Source: Saprospiraceae bacterium (GTDB taxonomy: Bacteria > Bacteroidota > Bacteroidia > Chitinophagales > Saprospiraceae). From it: DNA of 64,000 nucleotides. Both the position numbers and the translations under genes were made by a program. Where the stretch lies: positions 62,001 to 126,000 of the forward strand of contig JALHQW010000010.1 in assembly GCA_022841745.1 (NCBI GenBank), written 5' to 3'. This document shows, piece by piece, positions 29,439 through 33,974 of this stretch. Below the pieces are notes generated by a model. It had not been told where the DNA came from. It did not search any database and was given only the letters and a program-made list of their open reading frames with translations. The stretch's first letter is position 1, and each line of letters starts with the position of its first letter.

Positions 29439-30242
29439 ATGACTTCTGTGCAAGCAATTGAAATTAACAAATCTATTCCCGTGATAAAAGCGCTGATCGT
29501 CGAAGACGAAATCAAGAGCATGAACAACCTCAAGAACCTTCTGGCAACGCATTGTCCGGAAGTTCAGGTGATAGGCGATGCGCTAAGTGTGGAAGAAGCA
29601 ATTGATTTGTTTGAAGAGGCTGAGTTCAAGCCAGATGTGGCTTTTTTGGACATCAACTTGCCAGATGGGTTGATTTTTCAGTTGCTCGACGAGCTTAAAC
29701 CTATAGATTTCGAGGTCATTTTCATCACCGCCTTTAACGAGCACGCAATTCGTGCCTGTCAATACTCTTCCATTGGCTATATCATGAAGCCAATCAACCC
29801 CGATGAACTGGTTCAAGCCGTGAGCCGTATTAGGGTTCAGAGCGGTGAAAAAATCGAGGAGCGCATCGAATTGTTCAACAAGTCGTTGTCCAATCCCAAC
29901 TCCTTCGAGAAGATGAGCATTTCGGCAATTGATGGCATCTATTTCGTTTCAATCAAAGACATTGTCCGGTTCGAGGCAGAAGACAATTACACGCATATTT
30001 ACTTGATCAATGGTGAGCGGATAACCGCATCGAGGACTATTAAGGCTTACGAAGACATGCTCCAGATGCTGAATTTTTACAGGGTACACAAACGCCATGT
30101 CATCAACCTCAACTACATGCGCAAGTTCATCAAAGGCGACGGAGGCTATTTGGTGATGGACGACGGCAAGAAGATTGAGGTGTCGAGGCGACGGCGGCCA
30201 GCTTTCATGGAGCAAATGAGGAGGCTTGAGGAAGCACTTTAA
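29439..30242 (+). CDS. LytTR-family response regulator
   Basis: 267 residues. The receiver domain (about 15-135) has the acidic pair E22/D23 in ALIVEDEIKSM, the phosphate acceptor D71 in VAFLDINLPDG, T/A in IFITAFN and K in YIMKPINPDE. The LytTR DNA-binding domain spans about 165-262 (GIYFVSIKDIVRFEAEDNYT, RVHKRHVINLNYMRKF). LytTR proteins bind pairs of short direct repeats spaced by two helical turns. It is encoded 245 bp before a GG-leader peptide gene and 724 bp before a TPR histidine kinase gene on the same strand, the natural partner. CCGTT direct repeats lie in front of two small RNA genes downstream of the kinase. Confidence 0.93.
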   Translation: MTSVQAIEINKSIPVIKALIVEDEIKSMNNLKNLLATHCPEVQVIGDALSVEEAIDLFEEAEFKPDVAFLDINLPDGLIFQLLDELKPIDFEVIFITAFNEHAIRACQYSSIGYIMKPINPDELVQAVSRIRVQSGEKIEERIELFNKSLSNPNSFEKMSISAIDGIYFVSIKDIVRFEAEDNYTHIYLINGERITASRTIKAYEDMLQMLNFYRVHKRHVINLNYMRKFIKGDGGYLVMDDGKKIEVSRRRRPAFMEQMRRLEEAL

Positions 30243-30370
30243 ATTGGAAACTTACACATTATATAACAGACAGTATCAAGGGTTAGCGGGAGGAGCTTAG
30301 GGGAAAACGATGGGATTTGAGTAAAGCTACACAGCGAAATGCCCAATTTTGTATTAAATTTTGCAGGAAG

Positions 30371-30401
30371 TTTTGTGGAAACTCAAAAGTGGCTATCTTT
30401 G
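30371..30401 (+). promoter_or_regulatory. Promoter of the GG-leader peptide gene
   Basis: TTTTG (30371-30375), an 18-bp spacer and TATCTTTG (30394-30401) match the Bacteroidota consensus fully. The transcript would start near 30408, about 80 bases before the likely start codon. Confidence 0.75.
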
Positions 30402-30486
30402 GAACCTGAGAACGCACACACTTTTTACTGTTAGCAAAAAGCGAGACACTATGGCCTTTGGATTTTTCACTCAAAACCTAGATACT

Positions 30487-30660
30487 ATGGGTAAGACTAA
30501 AAAGAAAAACTTGCTTGAACTTGACGACCTTACGCAAATCAAGAAGGTCGAAATGGGCGAGTTTATTGGAGGCAACGACAAAATCACCGAAAACAAAAAA
30601 AGGGGCTTCTTCGCCGGCTTTTTTGGCCCTGGCCCATGTTTGGGTGATATGCCACAATAA
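30487..30660 (+). CDS. Double-glycine leader peptide (RiPP/bacteriocin- or signal-precursor-like, 57 aa)
   Basis: From the ATG at 30487 the product has 57 residues; an ATG at 30451 in the same frame would add 12. The first 29 residues are a leader: MGKTKKKNLLELDDLTQIKK, followed by VEMGEFIGG. This matches the Bacteroidota GG-type natural-product precursor leaders (K-rich start, LLxLxxLxQI, then ExxxxxGG). The remaining 28 residues would be the core peptide, NDKITENKKRGFFAGFF and then GPGPCLGDMPQ, with one cysteine and an aromatic, glycine-rich middle. The gene has its own ideal promoter and its own terminator and lies between the response regulator and histidine kinase genes. No processing enzyme or ABC exporter is in the window. 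Being a signal for the adjacent kinase is an inference. Confidence 0.7.
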   Translation: MGKTKKKNLLELDDLTQIKKVEMGEFIGGNDKITENKKRGFFAGFFGPGPCLGDMPQ

Positions 30661-30693
30661 GAATCGAAAGACATTATTTTTTAAGAGGGAACA

Positions 30694-30732
30694 ACAAAAG
30701 AGGCTGCACCGCAGATGTGATGCCTCTTTTGT
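30694..30732 (+). terminator. Intrinsic terminator of the peptide gene
   Basis: An 11-bp perfect stem, ACAAAAGAGGC with GCCTCTTTTGT, 34 bp beyond the stop codon. The T-rich part lies inside the distal arm. Confidence 0.65.
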
Positions 30733-30749
30733 CGTGTATATACCCCATC

Positions 30750-30909
30750 AATGGTTCGTGAAGTTTTAAGGTTCTATGGTTTTCGGGATTTTGGGCAAAA
30801 TCTAACTGTAAATCATTTTTGACAAGGTTGGAAAAGCAACCTATCTTTTCAAGAACAGCTACTGTGCCGCAACCTTAGAACCCTAAACCCGAAAACTTCA
30901 CGAACCATT
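30750..30909. mobile_element. MITE-like element family M160, copy 2
   Basis: 160 bp with the same AATGGTTCGTGAAGTTTT ends as copy 1 and nearly the same interior (including CAAGGTTGGAAAAGCAACCT and CTACTGTGCCG). CCCAT occurs on both flanks, a possible target-site duplication. It separates the peptide gene from the histidine kinase gene. Confidence 0.75.
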
Positions 30910-30965
30910 GCCCATGTAAACCATCTTTTTTGCTATCGAAACACTCACTGGAAACACTATAAAAA

Positions 30966-32879
30966 ATGGTTAGCACTTTTCCCGACACCAACGAGGAACT
31001 GTTAAAATTGGAATCCACTCTACAACTCATTGACGAACGCCTTCAACGGCTTGCAACCCTTGACAAGTTGGCCTCTCAGCTTGTGTTTACGGATATTTCC
31101 AAGGCGCAGAAATACCTGGCTGAGATATTCCAGATTCTAACAGATTATGACCAACCAGATTTCGTGTTGAACTACAACCTCAACATGGCTCTCGTGGAAA
31201 ACCAGTTGTACAACTACAACCTCTCAGAAATCCATTTTCGCATTGCCCTCGAAATACTTGGGGAAAGGGGCGACGTCAACCAACTTACCGAAACCTATAT
31301 AGATTACGCTGGAACTCTCCTCAATCTTGACCAGCCTGACCGGGCTAGGTTTTACCTCAACCAGGCCACCAAGTACTTAGAGACTTTCCCCGACAACCGG
31401 CTCAATATTCGATTGATATGCAGGGAAGGTTTTTTTCACTTAAAATTCTCGAACTACCCCAAGGCGCTACAATCCTTCCTTGATTGTGTTCTGGCCATTG
31501 AAACAATGACCGAGATTCCCAGCCTCAAGGATTACCATTTTTTCACATTGGTTCAAAGTGGGTTAGGCTCCATTTATGCAGTCCTGAACGAACCAGAAAG
31601 GAGCATTGAGTCCTATTTGAACGTAGTTGAGCTTTGCGAGAAGAAAGGAATGCGTTCTAGGCTTTCCTGGCATTACCTCAATGTTGGCAATGGCTATATG
31701 GCCATGCAGGACTATGAGAATGCAAGTCAATATTTTAAAAAAGCCATCAAAGTTGTTGATGATTTGAACCAGCAAACCAGGGCCTTGGCTTATGCCAATC
31801 TTGGGTTCTGCTACCTCAATAAAAGGCAGTACAAAGAGGCCCTTGAACTGTTTACTACTGCCTACCCACTGTTCAAGGACAGACGTGAAAAGAACCTTGC
31901 CAATATTGAGTGGTGGCGAGGAAAGATCTATGAAGAAGTAAAAGCTAAGAAAGCACTAAAGCATTATTTCAAGGCATTGGAATTTGCCAAAAAGGGGCAA
32001 GAGTACCGCCAAGCAACTGGGATAATGAAATCCATCGCTGACCTCTATGCGAAAGAACTTGAGTATAAAAACGCCTACGATTACCAGGTGCTTTACAACC
32101 AAGCAGTTGAGCGAATCATGTCCGATGAATTGAACAGCCAAATCAGGGAACTGGAAATCCGCTATTCTGCCGAAAGCAAAGAAAAAGAGGCTGAGATGTT
32201 CAAATTGCAGGCAGCGGGACTTCAGTTGAAAGCACTCAGGGCACAGATGAACCCGCATTTTGTTTTCAATGCACTGAATTCAGTTCAGAACTATATCACC
32301 TCCAACGAAACCACTCAAGCAGCAAAATACTTGGCAGAGTTTGCCCACTTGATGCGCAAAAGTTTAGAGTATTCCGAGTTGGAAGTCATTTCACTTGAAA
32401 AAGAAGTTGATTTCCTTCGCAACTACTTGGATATCAACATGAACTTGCGATTTGAGAACCAGCTCCGCTACGATATAACGATTGACGAAGAAATAGAGGA
32501 GGACATTTATGGTGTTCCAACCATGATAGTCCAGCCATATGTTGAAAATGCCATCGAACATGGAATCCGCTCAAAACGGAATGGGCTTATCAAGATTGAT
32601 TTTAGCCTGATTGATGAGAATACCATCCTTTGCACAGTAGAGGATGATGGAATTGGAAGACAAAAGGCAAGGGAATTGCAGCTAAAAAACCCCAGCTTCA
32701 AAGACCACAAGTCCATGGGTACCCGAATCACACAAGACAGGCTTGAAATCTTGCTTCGCACTCGCAACATGGCTGAGAGTGCCGTTGAAATTCATGATTT
32801 GGTGGACGATGCGACAGGGAGGGCGACAGGAACCCGTGTTGAAATCAGGATCCCCGTAATGGAAATTCCAATGAGGTAA
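30966..32879 (+). CDS. TPR-containing LytS-type sensor histidine kinase without membrane segments
   Basis: 637 residues. Residues about 60-380 are TPR-like helical repeats (YLNVGNGYMAMQDYENASQY, AYANLGFCYLNKRQYKEAL). A coiled coil spans about 390-425. The kinase core is of the His_kinase (LytS/AgrC-like, PF06580) type: the phosphoacceptor is H431 in QMNPHFVFNALNSVQN, the N box is IVQPYVENAIEHGI, and the G box is VEDDGIGRQKA. There is no signal peptide and no hydrophobic span, so it should sense an intracellular ligand or partner protein. The likely partner is the LytTR regulator 0.7 kb upstream. A hairpin follows the stop codon. Confidence 0.92.
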   Translation: MVSTFPDTNEELLKLESTLQLIDERLQRLATLDKLASQLVFTDISKAQKYLAEIFQILTDYDQPDFVLNYNLNMALVENQLYNYNLSEIHFRIALEILGERGDVNQLTETYIDYAGTLLNLDQPDRARFYLNQATKYLETFPDNRLNIRLICREGFFHLKFSNYPKALQSFLDCVLAIETMTEIPSLKDYHFFTLVQSGLGSIYAVLNEPERSIESYLNVVELCEKKGMRSRLSWHYLNVGNGYMAMQDYENASQYFKKAIKVVDDLNQQTRALAYANLGFCYLNKRQYKEALELFTTAYPLFKDRREKNLANIEWWRGKIYEEVKAKKALKHYFKALEFAKKGQEYRQATGIMKSIADLYAKELEYKNAYDYQVLYNQAVERIMSDELNSQIRELEIRYSAESKEKEAEMFKLQAAGLQLKALRAQMNPHFVFNALNSVQNYITSNETTQAAKYLAEFAHLMRKSLEYSELEVISLEKEVDFLRNYLDINMNLRFENQLRYDITIDEEIEEDIYGVPTMIVQPYVENAIEHGIRSKRNGLIKIDFSLIDENTILCTVEDDGIGRQKARELQLKNPSFKDHKSMGTRITQDRLEILLRTRNMAESAVEIHDLVDDATGRATGTRVEIRIPVMEIPMR

Positions 32880-32894
32880 CTCAAAAGTTCGATT

Positions 32895-32930
32895 CCGGTT
32901 TCTGTTGCCTTACCTACCAACAGAAACCGG
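32895..32930 (+). terminator. Strong hairpin after the histidine kinase gene
   Basis: A perfect 13-bp stem, CCGGTTTCTGTTG with its complement, lies 15 bp past the stop. It lacks a T-tract on the plus strand, so it may stabilise the 3' end rather than terminate by itself. Confidence 0.5.
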
Positions 32931-32992
32931 AAAAACTTGAAAAGAGAAGAGAAAATCTTGGGCAAATCTTCGATATTAGAAAAAATGAAGAT

Positions 32993-33000
32993 ATATTTGC
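32993..33000 (+). promoter_or_regulatory. -7 element of small RNA 1
   Basis: TATATTTG, an exact TAnnTTTG match, ending 4 bp before the conserved 20-nt segment of sRNA 1. No CCGTT repeats lie at the distances found before sRNA 2 and sRNA 3. Confidence 0.6.
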
Positions 33001-33004
33001 CATA

Positions 33005-33076
33005 GTTTTCTCATAGTATGTTTGTTTAATCTTCCTGCACCTTATGTCCCTCCTGGGGTGCGGGAATTTTTTTTTG
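33005..33076 (+). ncRNA. Small RNA 1 of a three-member homologous family
   Basis: It starts with AGTTTTCTCATAGTATGTTT, identical in all three members. After 8 more bases comes a terminator: stem TTCCTGCACC with GGGTGCGGGAA and nine T. The expected length is about 72 nt. A start codon inside the conserved segment would encode only MFV here, while the other copies give unrelated short frames, so a peptide function is unlikely. No gene follows on this strand for more than 4 kb, which rules out an attenuator. Confidence 0.7.
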
Positions 33077-33184
33077 TGCCAATTTCAAGCACTGTGTTGT
33101 GTGTAGTCTCTCCAAATGTTTAGTGCGCTTCAGCCTTAACATTCGATTCTTGCGGCAAAAATAGAATAATAAAGAATATTTTTT

Positions 33185-33295
33185 CCGTTAATTGAAAAAA
33201 AACTACCGTTCCCTCAAAATTTCCTACCGTTCCCTCATGAAACCTACCAGTGCGTAAATGTAGCTTTTTCTGTCAATTTGTAGGAGGTACTTTTG
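33185..33295 (+). promoter_or_regulatory. Promoter of sRNA 2 with phased CCGTT direct repeats (LytTR-like sites)
   Basis: CCGTT occurs at 33185, 33206 and 33227, exactly 21 bp apart, and a degenerate CCAGT follows at 33247. The two inner sites share CTACCGTTCCCTCA. The -7 element is TACTTTTG (33288-33295); no good -33 TTTG exists, as expected for an activated promoter. The sites at 33206, 33227 and 33247 lie 89, 68 and 48 nt from the end of the -7 element. Confidence 0.65.
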
Positions 33296-33300
33296 TTGTA

Positions 33301-33368
33301 AGTTTTCTCATAGTATGTTTAATTCTCCTACACCTTTTTTTCCCTTCTGGGGTGTAGGAATTTTTTTT
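33301..33368 (+). ncRNA. Small RNA 2 of the family
   Basis: It has the same 20-nt 5' segment as sRNA 1, then TCCTACACC paired with GGTGTAGGA and eight T. The expected length is about 68 nt. The loop is pyrimidine-rich. The 5' single-stranded segment, not the terminator loop, is what the family conserves, so it is the likely target-pairing part. Confidence 0.7.
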
Positions 33369-33460
33369 CTCCAACTTCTACATTTTCAGCTAGGCTTTCC
33401 TTAGAAAGCAAACTGCCCAACCCACCAGAACTGTTTTCAATTATGAGTATGTGTGCGCTA

Positions 33461-33632
33461 ATAGAATGTATCCATTTAGCGTATGTCGCTGTATCGCCGT
33501 TAGGCGGCTCTCCTAAAAAAAATCCCTTCGACCGCCGATGAGATTTTTTTAGGGGAAATGAAAATTTTGCTTAGCATAATTAACGATCCCCCTTACTTGG
33601 AAGGACGGTCCGCTAAATAGATGCGATAGAAT
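33461..33632. mobile_element. Second MITE-like element, between sRNA 2 and sRNA 3
   Basis: ATAGAAT flanks the stretch on both sides (33461-33467 and 33626-33632), consistent with a 7-bp target-site duplication. Inside, the ends GTATCCATTTAGCG and CGCTAAATAGATGCG are imperfect inverted repeats. An inner hairpin CCTAAAAAAAATC/GATTTTTTTAGG is also present. There is no coding frame. It is not related to family M160. Confidence 0.5.
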
Positions 33633-33805
33633 TATTGGTCTGAACAGTTGAGTGAGGTGATTTTCATTTTTGGCAGATTTCCATCCAAAGGTGATGATTT
33701 ACAAGTTATAGTAATTTATATCTCTATATGATTGAAAATGAAGTGACATTGAAGTTGGCTTAGCCAAAACAACCCATTTTACCTTTTAACGCCCAAGCAG
33801 GAATA

Positions 33806-33895
33806 CCATTTTCTAAATCAAACCTACCGTTCCCTTTCAAAACCTGCCGTTCCCTAAACAGCGCTTGTCAGATAATTTTAAAACCTGCTCCTTTG
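33806..33895 (+). promoter_or_regulatory. Promoter of sRNA 3 with phased CCGTT direct repeats (LytTR-like sites)
   Basis: CCGTT lies at 33827 and 33847 (shared context CCTRCCGTTCCCT), with a degenerate CCATT at 33806. Their distances to the end of the -7 element (33895) are 68, 48 and 89 nt, the same three numbers as before sRNA 2. The -7 itself is CTCCTTTG, a weak match. Confidence 0.65.
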
Positions 33896-33903
33896 CACTG
33901 TGT

Positions 33904-33974
33904 AGTTTTCTCATAGTATGTTTAGTGCTCCTACATCAGCCTTAAGCCTCCCTTGATGTAGGAGTTTTTTTTTT
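33904..33974 (+). ncRNA. Small RNA 3 of the family
   Basis: It has the identical 20-nt 5' segment, then an 11-bp terminator stem, CTCCTACATCA with TGATGTAGGAG, and ten T. The expected length is about 71 nt. The stem differs from that of copies 1 and 2 by compensating changes (ACC/GGT versus TCA/TGA), which supports selection for the hairpin. Confidence 0.7.

Follow-up and report, generated by a model that had tools for sequence, protein, structure and literature searches.

The 64,000-nt stretch of Saprospiraceae DNA analysed here (the window) belongs to an 8.4-Mb draft genome in 178 contigs and carries a single locus in which a response regulator, a small double-glycine (GG) leader peptide, a histidine kinase and three predicted small RNA (sRNA) genes are all encoded on the plus strand. 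The regulator (29439-30242, plus strand, 267 residues) contains a receiver domain (Pfam Response_reg, 6e-15) and a LytTR domain (2e-18), and its ortholog lies 5' of the peptide gene in relatives. The kinase (30966-32879, plus strand, 637 residues) is a soluble LytS-type protein with tetratricopeptide repeats (TPRs) and a His_kinase domain (PF06580, 7e-22); no transmembrane stretch was found in it (highest 19-residue Kyte-Doolittle mean 0.97), and its probable phospho-acceptor is His431 in the motif QMNPHF, invariant in 31 aligned sequences. The adjacency of a receiver-LytTR protein and a PF06580 protein is that of LytTR two-component systems, and the genome encodes 26 LytS-type kinase domains in all. 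An earlier note on this DNA had described a LytTR regulator, a 57-residue GG peptide, a cytoplasmic TPR kinase of LytS type and three homologous sRNAs on one strand, a description now borne out by Pfam matches, hydropathy, and the 18-mer and terminators shared by the RNAs.

The peptide gene (30487-30660, plus strand) lies between regulator and kinase and encodes 57 residues with the two glycines at positions 28-29. As in ComC and bacteriocin-type GG-leader peptides, a leader with hydrophobic positions ends in GG and is followed by a short core. The peptide alone gave no family match of its own, and its 37 aligned relatives gave weak matches to GG-leader models, including TIGR04149 (9 of 37, best 4e-5), TIGR01847 (6 of 37, 0.019) and the streptococcal ComC model (3 of 37, 0.006). 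In the alignment the first glycine is invariant, the second is present in more than 90 percent (the pair reads GT in genome G002), and the penultimate proline is near-invariant, the C-termini being Pro-Gln in 32 peptides, Pro-His in three, Pro-Leu in one and Asn-Gln in one. Regulator and kinase could both be placed in 29 loci, and the gap between them contains a GG-type homolog in 28; G059 has two and G023 none. When 62 genomes were searched with a profile of the 37 peptides, 25 gave a match, always a single copy and always in a kinase-bearing genome: 25 of 26 kinase genomes (G023 is missing) versus 0 of 36 others. In G028, peptide and regulator lie on a different contig from the kinase. A single-sequence search for paralogs of the peptide gave a second match only at E 1.6, and no modification, immunity, maturase or exporter gene was recognised between regulator and kinase.

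Transcription of the peptide mRNA would start from TATCTTTG (30394-30401, plus strand), a −7 element of the Bacteroidota type, which we take to be TAnnTT(T/G)-like; a similar element lies upstream in relatives of the same genus. A feature that the earlier note did not describe is a second in-frame ATG 36 nt upstream of the 30487 start, which opens an extended reading frame (30451-30660, plus strand). It occurs as CACTATG in 13 of the 14 own-genus loci, the exception being G002, and the stretch between the two ATGs looks coding in that genus, giving a conserved extension of FFTQNLD type found in the own genus only; the other 14 peptide loci are without it.

A C39-peptidase exporter would be expected for such a peptide, and this exporter domain is encoded in 25 of 26 kinase genomes, in 4 of 11 other genomes of the family and in 8 of 23 genomes of other families. 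The genome studied has two C39-peptidase ABC transporters, both unlinked to the locus (L388 on contig C9, L389 on contig C1). The one on C1 adjoins a protein that reads, without a family search, as HlyD-like, has no small GG peptide nearby by a crude pattern, and is a candidate exporter for the orphan peptide. Several of the seven C39 exporter loci examined (in G000, G014 and G033) have a similarly read HlyD-like partner, and no small GG peptide turned up beside any of the seven in a search with a single crude pattern.

Downstream of the kinase, three RNA genes of about 70 nt share a near-invariant 5' 18-mer, AGTTTTCTCATAGTATGTTT. Each copy folds into a 3' hairpin followed by a T-run (z −4.2, −3.4 and −4.1), and the 5' end is unpaired in the predicted folds. 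On the plus strand, sRNA 1 (~33005-33074) follows the −7 element TATATTTG (32992-32999) and sRNA 2 (~33302-33368) the −7 element TACTTTTG (33288-33295); the −7 element of sRNA 3 (~33905-33974), TCCTTTG, is off consensus. All three have the 18-mer and the terminator hairpin. In an Rfam search of the window a tRNA was the sole match above threshold, and the sRNA region gave sub-threshold matches only.

The 18-mer is widely conserved. With at most one mismatch it was found in 37 of 100 relatives, compared with one for the backward control. In the fetched loci the motif occurs with at most two mismatches at 120 places, 105 of which have a terminator hairpin; 89 of these 105 carry the exact 18-mer, and 9 of the 16 inexact elements deviate in their final base. 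Where loci were picked by their kinase, 49 of 55 elements have the exact 18-mer. These two fractions are the fair counts, since the 17-18-nt identity within the 17-mer sets arises by selection, exact 17-mers having been taken. Exact 17-mers with enough flank occupy 233 distinct places; at 222 of these a hairpin and T-run follow, and inspection by eye suggests that 6 of the remaining 11 are likewise sRNAs, their terminators being longer or poor in T. A TAnnTT(T/G)-like −7 element lies within 30 nt 5' of the motif in 200 of the 222, at −13 to −19 in 192 (counts made without a shuffle control); the elements before the motif are −7-like rather than of the sigma54 form. Three sRNA types can be distinguished by crude rules on flanking letters, their stems varying compensatorily in groups of 40, 38 and 52 sequences and their loops keeping a C-rich stretch (CCCUCC, CCCUUC or GCCUCCC in the consensus).

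A fourth exact copy of the 18-mer in this genome (locus L004, contig C49) lies about 50 nt after hemD and has its own GC-rich terminator. Among the hemD loci surveyed, namely those fetched because of the sRNA motif, copies of this type lie about 50-70 nt after hemD (134 nt in G028) in 13 own-genus genomes (with a mismatch in G002), in G028 and in G041. In G007 a second, near-match motif faces the hemD-type copy across a shared terminator.

The new result, likewise absent from the earlier note, is a link between RNA and peptide: the 5' end of the sRNAs, UUUUCUCAUAGUAUGUUU, is complementary to the start codon of the peptide mRNA, its complement reading AAACAUACUAUGAGAAAA with the AUG in the middle. 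The predicted pairing site (30481-30499, plus strand) covers −6 to +12 from the A of the ATG at 30487, with a duplex energy of −17.3 kcal/mol. Duplexes were predicted between the 21-nt RNA end and a 50-nt window at each start. They average −16.4 kcal/mol over 29 peptide starts and −7.2 over 288 other starts, the latter being the first ATGs of open reading frames (ORFs) of at least 120 residues, some of them misplaced. Duplexes of −13 kcal/mol or below form at 27 of the 29 peptide starts, each with at least 12 pairs, versus 2 of the 288 controls, and ACU or GCU directly precedes the AUG in 27 of 29 peptides versus 16 of 288 controls. Among 1000 dinucleotide-shuffled sRNAs the average of the means is −8.5 and the best −14.1, and none matches the observed mean. 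The rows are not independent, as 14 of 28 peptide loci belong to one genus; pairing is predicted in 12 of the 14 other genera.

The complementarity recurs in peptides held out from this comparison. In a set from named records, from which matches above E 0.01 and duplicate windows had been dropped and 7 windows already used set aside, 16 of 19 new windows reach −13 kcal/mol or below (mean −15.6), some being near relatives of those used; of the 26 rows, 4 had more than one ATG, and in these the best was taken. Five further genomes give −13.6 to −17.2 kcal/mol at the best ATG, one of them with a weak peptide match (E 0.29) and one with an uncertain start. In G019, which has the kinase and peptide and no sRNA motif in the genome, the complement is absent and the energy is −11.2 kcal/mol.

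Kinase and sRNA also co-occur across the family. Among 48 genera of Saprospiraceae, 23 have both, 23 have neither, one has the kinase only (G019) and one the sRNA only (G040), with G035 counted as negative for its single motif without terminator (Fisher 4e-11, phylogeny not corrected for). The order's other families were covered by 39 genomes, none of which had either at the thresholds used. The sRNAs lie just downstream of the kinase on the same contig in 24 of 37 kinase genomes, a count made over many broken assemblies; two kinase genomes have no motif, G013, where the contig ends in the kinase, and G019. In G059 (loci L105 and L087), four sRNA copies lie on one contig and the genome has two GG peptides. 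A scan for the 19-mer gave at least 118 stretches, and among the matches listed 80 titled loci comprise 61 labelled Saprospiraceae, Saprospirales, Lewinella or Phaeodactylibacter, 17 with broader Bacteroidota labels, one 'bacterium' and one Thalassovita, the last having no terminator. Two cultured strains are included: Phaeodactylibacter luteus KCTC 42180 (L202) has regulator, peptide, kinase and two sRNAs, and P. xiamenensis KD52 (L241) has peptide, kinase and two sRNAs on a record that ends before the regulator. The earlier note had proposed a search of relatives for the parts in the same order, and had named absence of the peptide and sRNAs beside the orthologous kinase-regulator pair as the finding that would count against its idea. 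The idea withstood this check: the parts do co-occur family-wide, and the peptide is in its place at 28 of 29 loci. The strict order held less well, with sRNAs adjacent in 24 of 37 genomes only.

A connection from regulator to RNA is supported by arrays of LytTR-like boxes at fixed distance from the sRNAs. The direct repeats that the earlier note had seen at two sRNA promoters resolve into three boxes upstream of sRNA 2 (33205-33258, plus strand; boxes at 33205, 33226 and 33246, the third degenerate) and three upstream of sRNA 3 (33805-33858, plus strand; boxes at 33805, 33826 and 33846). The spacing is 21 + 20 nt at both promoters, the third box starting 57 nt (sRNA 2) and 60 nt (sRNA 3) before the motif. 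Such arrays are the form expected of LytTR sites, and the repeats agree with the tandem direct repeats about 20-22 bp apart of LytTR systems. Over the 222 sRNA upstream regions, 99 have a strict box, with 114 matches versus 2.9 in mononucleotide shuffles, for a pattern drawn from the same data and shuffled by single bases only. Boxes lie at about −55, −76 and −97 from the motif, and with a looser pattern the commonest spacings are 20 (23 cases), 21 (20), 41 (16) and 42 (5). By sRNA type they are found in 33 of 43 s2, 27 of 65 s3, 8 of 50 s1, 0 of 10 hemD-type and 31 of 54 unclassed copies. Of nine perfect double boxes in 11 genomes, seven are the sRNA 2 promoter. The regulator of this locus would be the one that binds the boxes.

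A wider regulon defined by double boxes was rejected, with 106 genome-wide matches versus 54 in the backward control over 11 genomes and 10 versus 10 in the own genome. The best-conserved extra double box was also discarded, as it lies inside the coding region of a protein read as a glycosyltransferase. One case was kept as a lead: in L359 (own genome, contig C43) and L369 (G004, contig C29), a LytTR-like double box lies about 110 nt before a 469-residue protein whose start pairs fairly well with the sRNA (−12.4 and −12.0 kcal/mol), and in L359 the next, lipoprotein-like gene has the best non-peptide start of the control set (−15.3 kcal/mol).

Other possible targets of the sRNAs were found in the same genome. 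Locus L353 (C32:16500-27500) contains two perfect sRNA complements, of 16 and 14 nt, at its positions 2571 and 7071. Each precedes, by about 460-560 nt, a large ORF (1268 residues in one case, more than 1100 in the other) with a signal-peptide-like start and an apparently secreted product, and each site opens a short ORF (MRKVRKPS... and MRKRPMNF). Both sites align in G000, G001, G004 and G012, and in G005 the second site fails to align. Among the matches listed, other own-genus genomes also have site pairs, separated by about 4.4-4.5 kb. Site A (30 nt) is present in 8 of 100 genomes, all 8 among the 14 of the own genus, and lies behind a conserved TTGGCAC stretch that we take to resemble half a sigma54 promoter. 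A sub-threshold Rfam scan of the complement-site region gave nothing convincing. The two sites may be leader targets or sponges. A target search with three mismatches gave 82 matches in the own genome versus 43 in the control, and 4 of the 29 sites listed (from 30 fetched loci) open an ORF of more than 100 residues. In addition, ACACACTATGAGAACA-type sites recur at intervals of about 90-180 nt at C6:182973-183726 of this genome; those examined open only very short ORFs.

Several known systems resemble parts of this locus. One is the csRNA control of the pheromone peptide ComC, which itself carries a GG leader. In that system the genes involved do not sit together in one locus, the regulator CiaR belongs to a class other than LytTR, and the pheromone has a receptor pair distinct from ciaRH. 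According to PMC4507080, the CiaRH-dependent csRNAs (Ccn) of Streptococcus pneumoniae are predicted to pair around the comC translation start and shown to suppress comC, and their action on comC needs more than one csRNA. The present locus is alike in that the genome has several sibling sRNAs (three at the locus and the hemD copy) that are predicted to be complementary to a GG-leader peptide mRNA around its translation start, subject to the choice of start site. It differs in that regulator, peptide, kinase and often the sRNAs are adjacent, in its soluble TPR kinase and in its Bacteroidota host. On the best reading, the locus would work like the csRNA-comC arrangement from unrelated parts; no membership is claimed, as regulator class and kinase differ.

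ComCDE and AgrBDCA likewise combine a LytTR regulator, a kinase of related class and a small peptide in one locus, and their kinases are membrane receptors; the present kinase has TPRs instead of the multi-pass membrane sensor domain of AgrC and ComD, and no exporter gene was recognised between regulator and kinase. In the RRNPP receptors (Rap, PlcR, ComR) an intracellular TPR domain is the peptide sensor, and the TPR domain of the present kinase could be one too, although here it is fused to a histidine kinase. The GG-leader ribosomally synthesised and post-translationally modified peptides (RiPPs) of Bacteroidota described by TIGR04149 share the GG leader (9 of 37 weak matches, best 4e-5) and differ in that no maturase was recognised between regulator and kinase here and in the Pro-Gln type C-terminus. 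The Vibrio Qrr RNAs, which the earlier note had named as a parallel, are homologous sRNAs downstream of a phosphorelay; they act on luxR-type mRNAs and require Hfq as well as LuxO/sigma54. The likeness of several homologous sRNAs with two-component parts stands, whereas the present sRNAs have no above-threshold Rfam match and −7-like elements rather than the sigma54 form. The csRNA-comC system is the better parallel because the sRNAs are complementary to the peptide's own start codon. Overall, the earlier interpretation is partly supported. A literature search of open-licence publications brought up no comparable system described from Bacteroidota.

What the sequences contain is the four parts, conserved and co-occurring, together with the terminators, the promoter-like elements, the box arrays and the start-codon complementarity, and these probably belong to a peptide/two-component/sibling-sRNA feedback circuit of Saprospiraceae. 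In such a circuit the kinase would phosphorylate the regulator, the activated regulator would raise sRNAs 2 and 3, and the 5' ends of these sRNAs would mask the peptide start codon and keep ribosomes from binding the mRNA. Activation would then lower peptide synthesis, a negative feedback. sRNA 1 and the hemD copy, having no boxes, would feed other inputs into the same seed. Most speculatively, a C39-peptidase ABC transporter whose gene lies elsewhere would cleave the peptide at its GG and carry it out of the cell, and the peptide or its precursor would be sensed by the cytoplasmic TPR domain. The peptide may be the signal of the kinase and, since the kinase is soluble with TPRs, would in that case have to act inside the cell. 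The fullest version, a Bacteroidota peptide communication system in which the exported GG peptide returns to or is sampled in the cell and binds the TPR kinase, and in which regulator-made sRNAs stop peptide translation and reprogram surface-protein mRNAs, is offered tentatively, as less likely than not.

Several observations weigh against the feedback circuit. The search for the peptide came up empty in G023 and in the loci fetched from G041, G046 and G053; the peptide start of G031, a genome with sRNAs, does not pair (−7.9 kcal/mol); and three of the 19 held-out windows are weak (−12.3, −11.4 and −8.6 kcal/mol). L280, L179 and L252 are also exceptions to the pairing. In the own genus the ATG 36 nt upstream may be the true peptide start. 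Because that ATG (30451) pairs with the sRNA at only −7.9 kcal/mol, the circuit is weakened: the strong site would then fall at codons 11-17 of a longer ORF, and an initiation block would be less certain. Kinase absences are not firm, at most 12 candidates having been scored per genome, and in 11 of 37 genomes (e.g. G036, G044 and G053) the sRNAs lie only on contigs other than that of the kinase. Box coverage is partial, including none at sRNA 1 here, and double boxes outnumber those of the backward control by only about two to one when 11 genomes are summed, and not at all in the own genome. With 26 LytS-type kinase domains encoded in the genome, another regulator could bind the boxes.

The last point leads to a reading that we consider improbable, in which the regulator of this locus does not drive the sRNAs, the gene order is a matter of inherited linkage, and the RNAs are transcribed either constitutively or under a different LytTR regulator. 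The large number of LytS-type kinase domains, the lack of boxes at sRNA 1 and at 10 of 10 hemD-type copies, and the sRNAs on separate contigs in 11 of 37 genomes are consistent with it; the near one-to-one co-occurrence of kinase and sRNA over 48 genera argues against it. Also unlikely is that the sRNAs mainly control other mRNAs, such as those of the two large apparently secreted proteins, with the peptide as a secondary target or with those leaders as sponges that titrate the sRNAs. The 16- and 14-nt perfect complements upstream of the two ORFs would fit, as would the exact 18-mer in 89 of 105 terminator-bearing elements, which is more than peptide pairing alone seems to need, but site A is confined to 8 of 100 genomes and one genus, compared with peptide pairing in 12 of 14 other genera.

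A more serious competitor, though itself a tentative one, keeps the kinase, regulator and sRNAs as a conserved stress switch and makes the peptide an effector (bacteriocin-like or a modified natural product) limited by the sRNAs, the kinase sensing something else. TPR domains bind many ligands, the GG-leader models that match the peptides are mostly of bacteriocin or RiPP type (TIGR04149 in 9 of 37, TIGR01847 in 6 of 37), and the same seed behind hemD without boxes makes other inputs likely. Against an effector stand the single profile match per genome, only in kinase-bearing genomes among the 62; the shared C-terminus, with 32 of 37 peptides ending in Pro-Gln and four more in Pro-His or Pro-Leu; the lack of a recognised modification or immunity gene between regulator and kinase; and the lack of a small GG peptide, by the one crude pattern, beside the seven exporter loci.

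Of the genes around the locus, PBP1C on the downstream side is a neighbour in several other genera too, and the upstream SDR and MptE-like genes are largely limited to the own genus, both also occurring in G042. Between sRNA 2 and sRNA 3, positions 33460-33640 form a strongly folding stretch (−50.3 kcal/mol) that is missing from two aligned relatives (G011 and G001) and was not found elsewhere in the fetched DNA.

The candidate circuit is compact, occurs family-wide and would control a peptide through an RNA feedback arm; cultured strains have it as well. Both the peptides and the sRNAs form new families, and for the sRNAs a target is predicted. If true, it would be a convergent version of the pneumococcal csRNA-comC design built from other parts, suggesting that sRNA repression of a system's own peptide is a recurrent solution.

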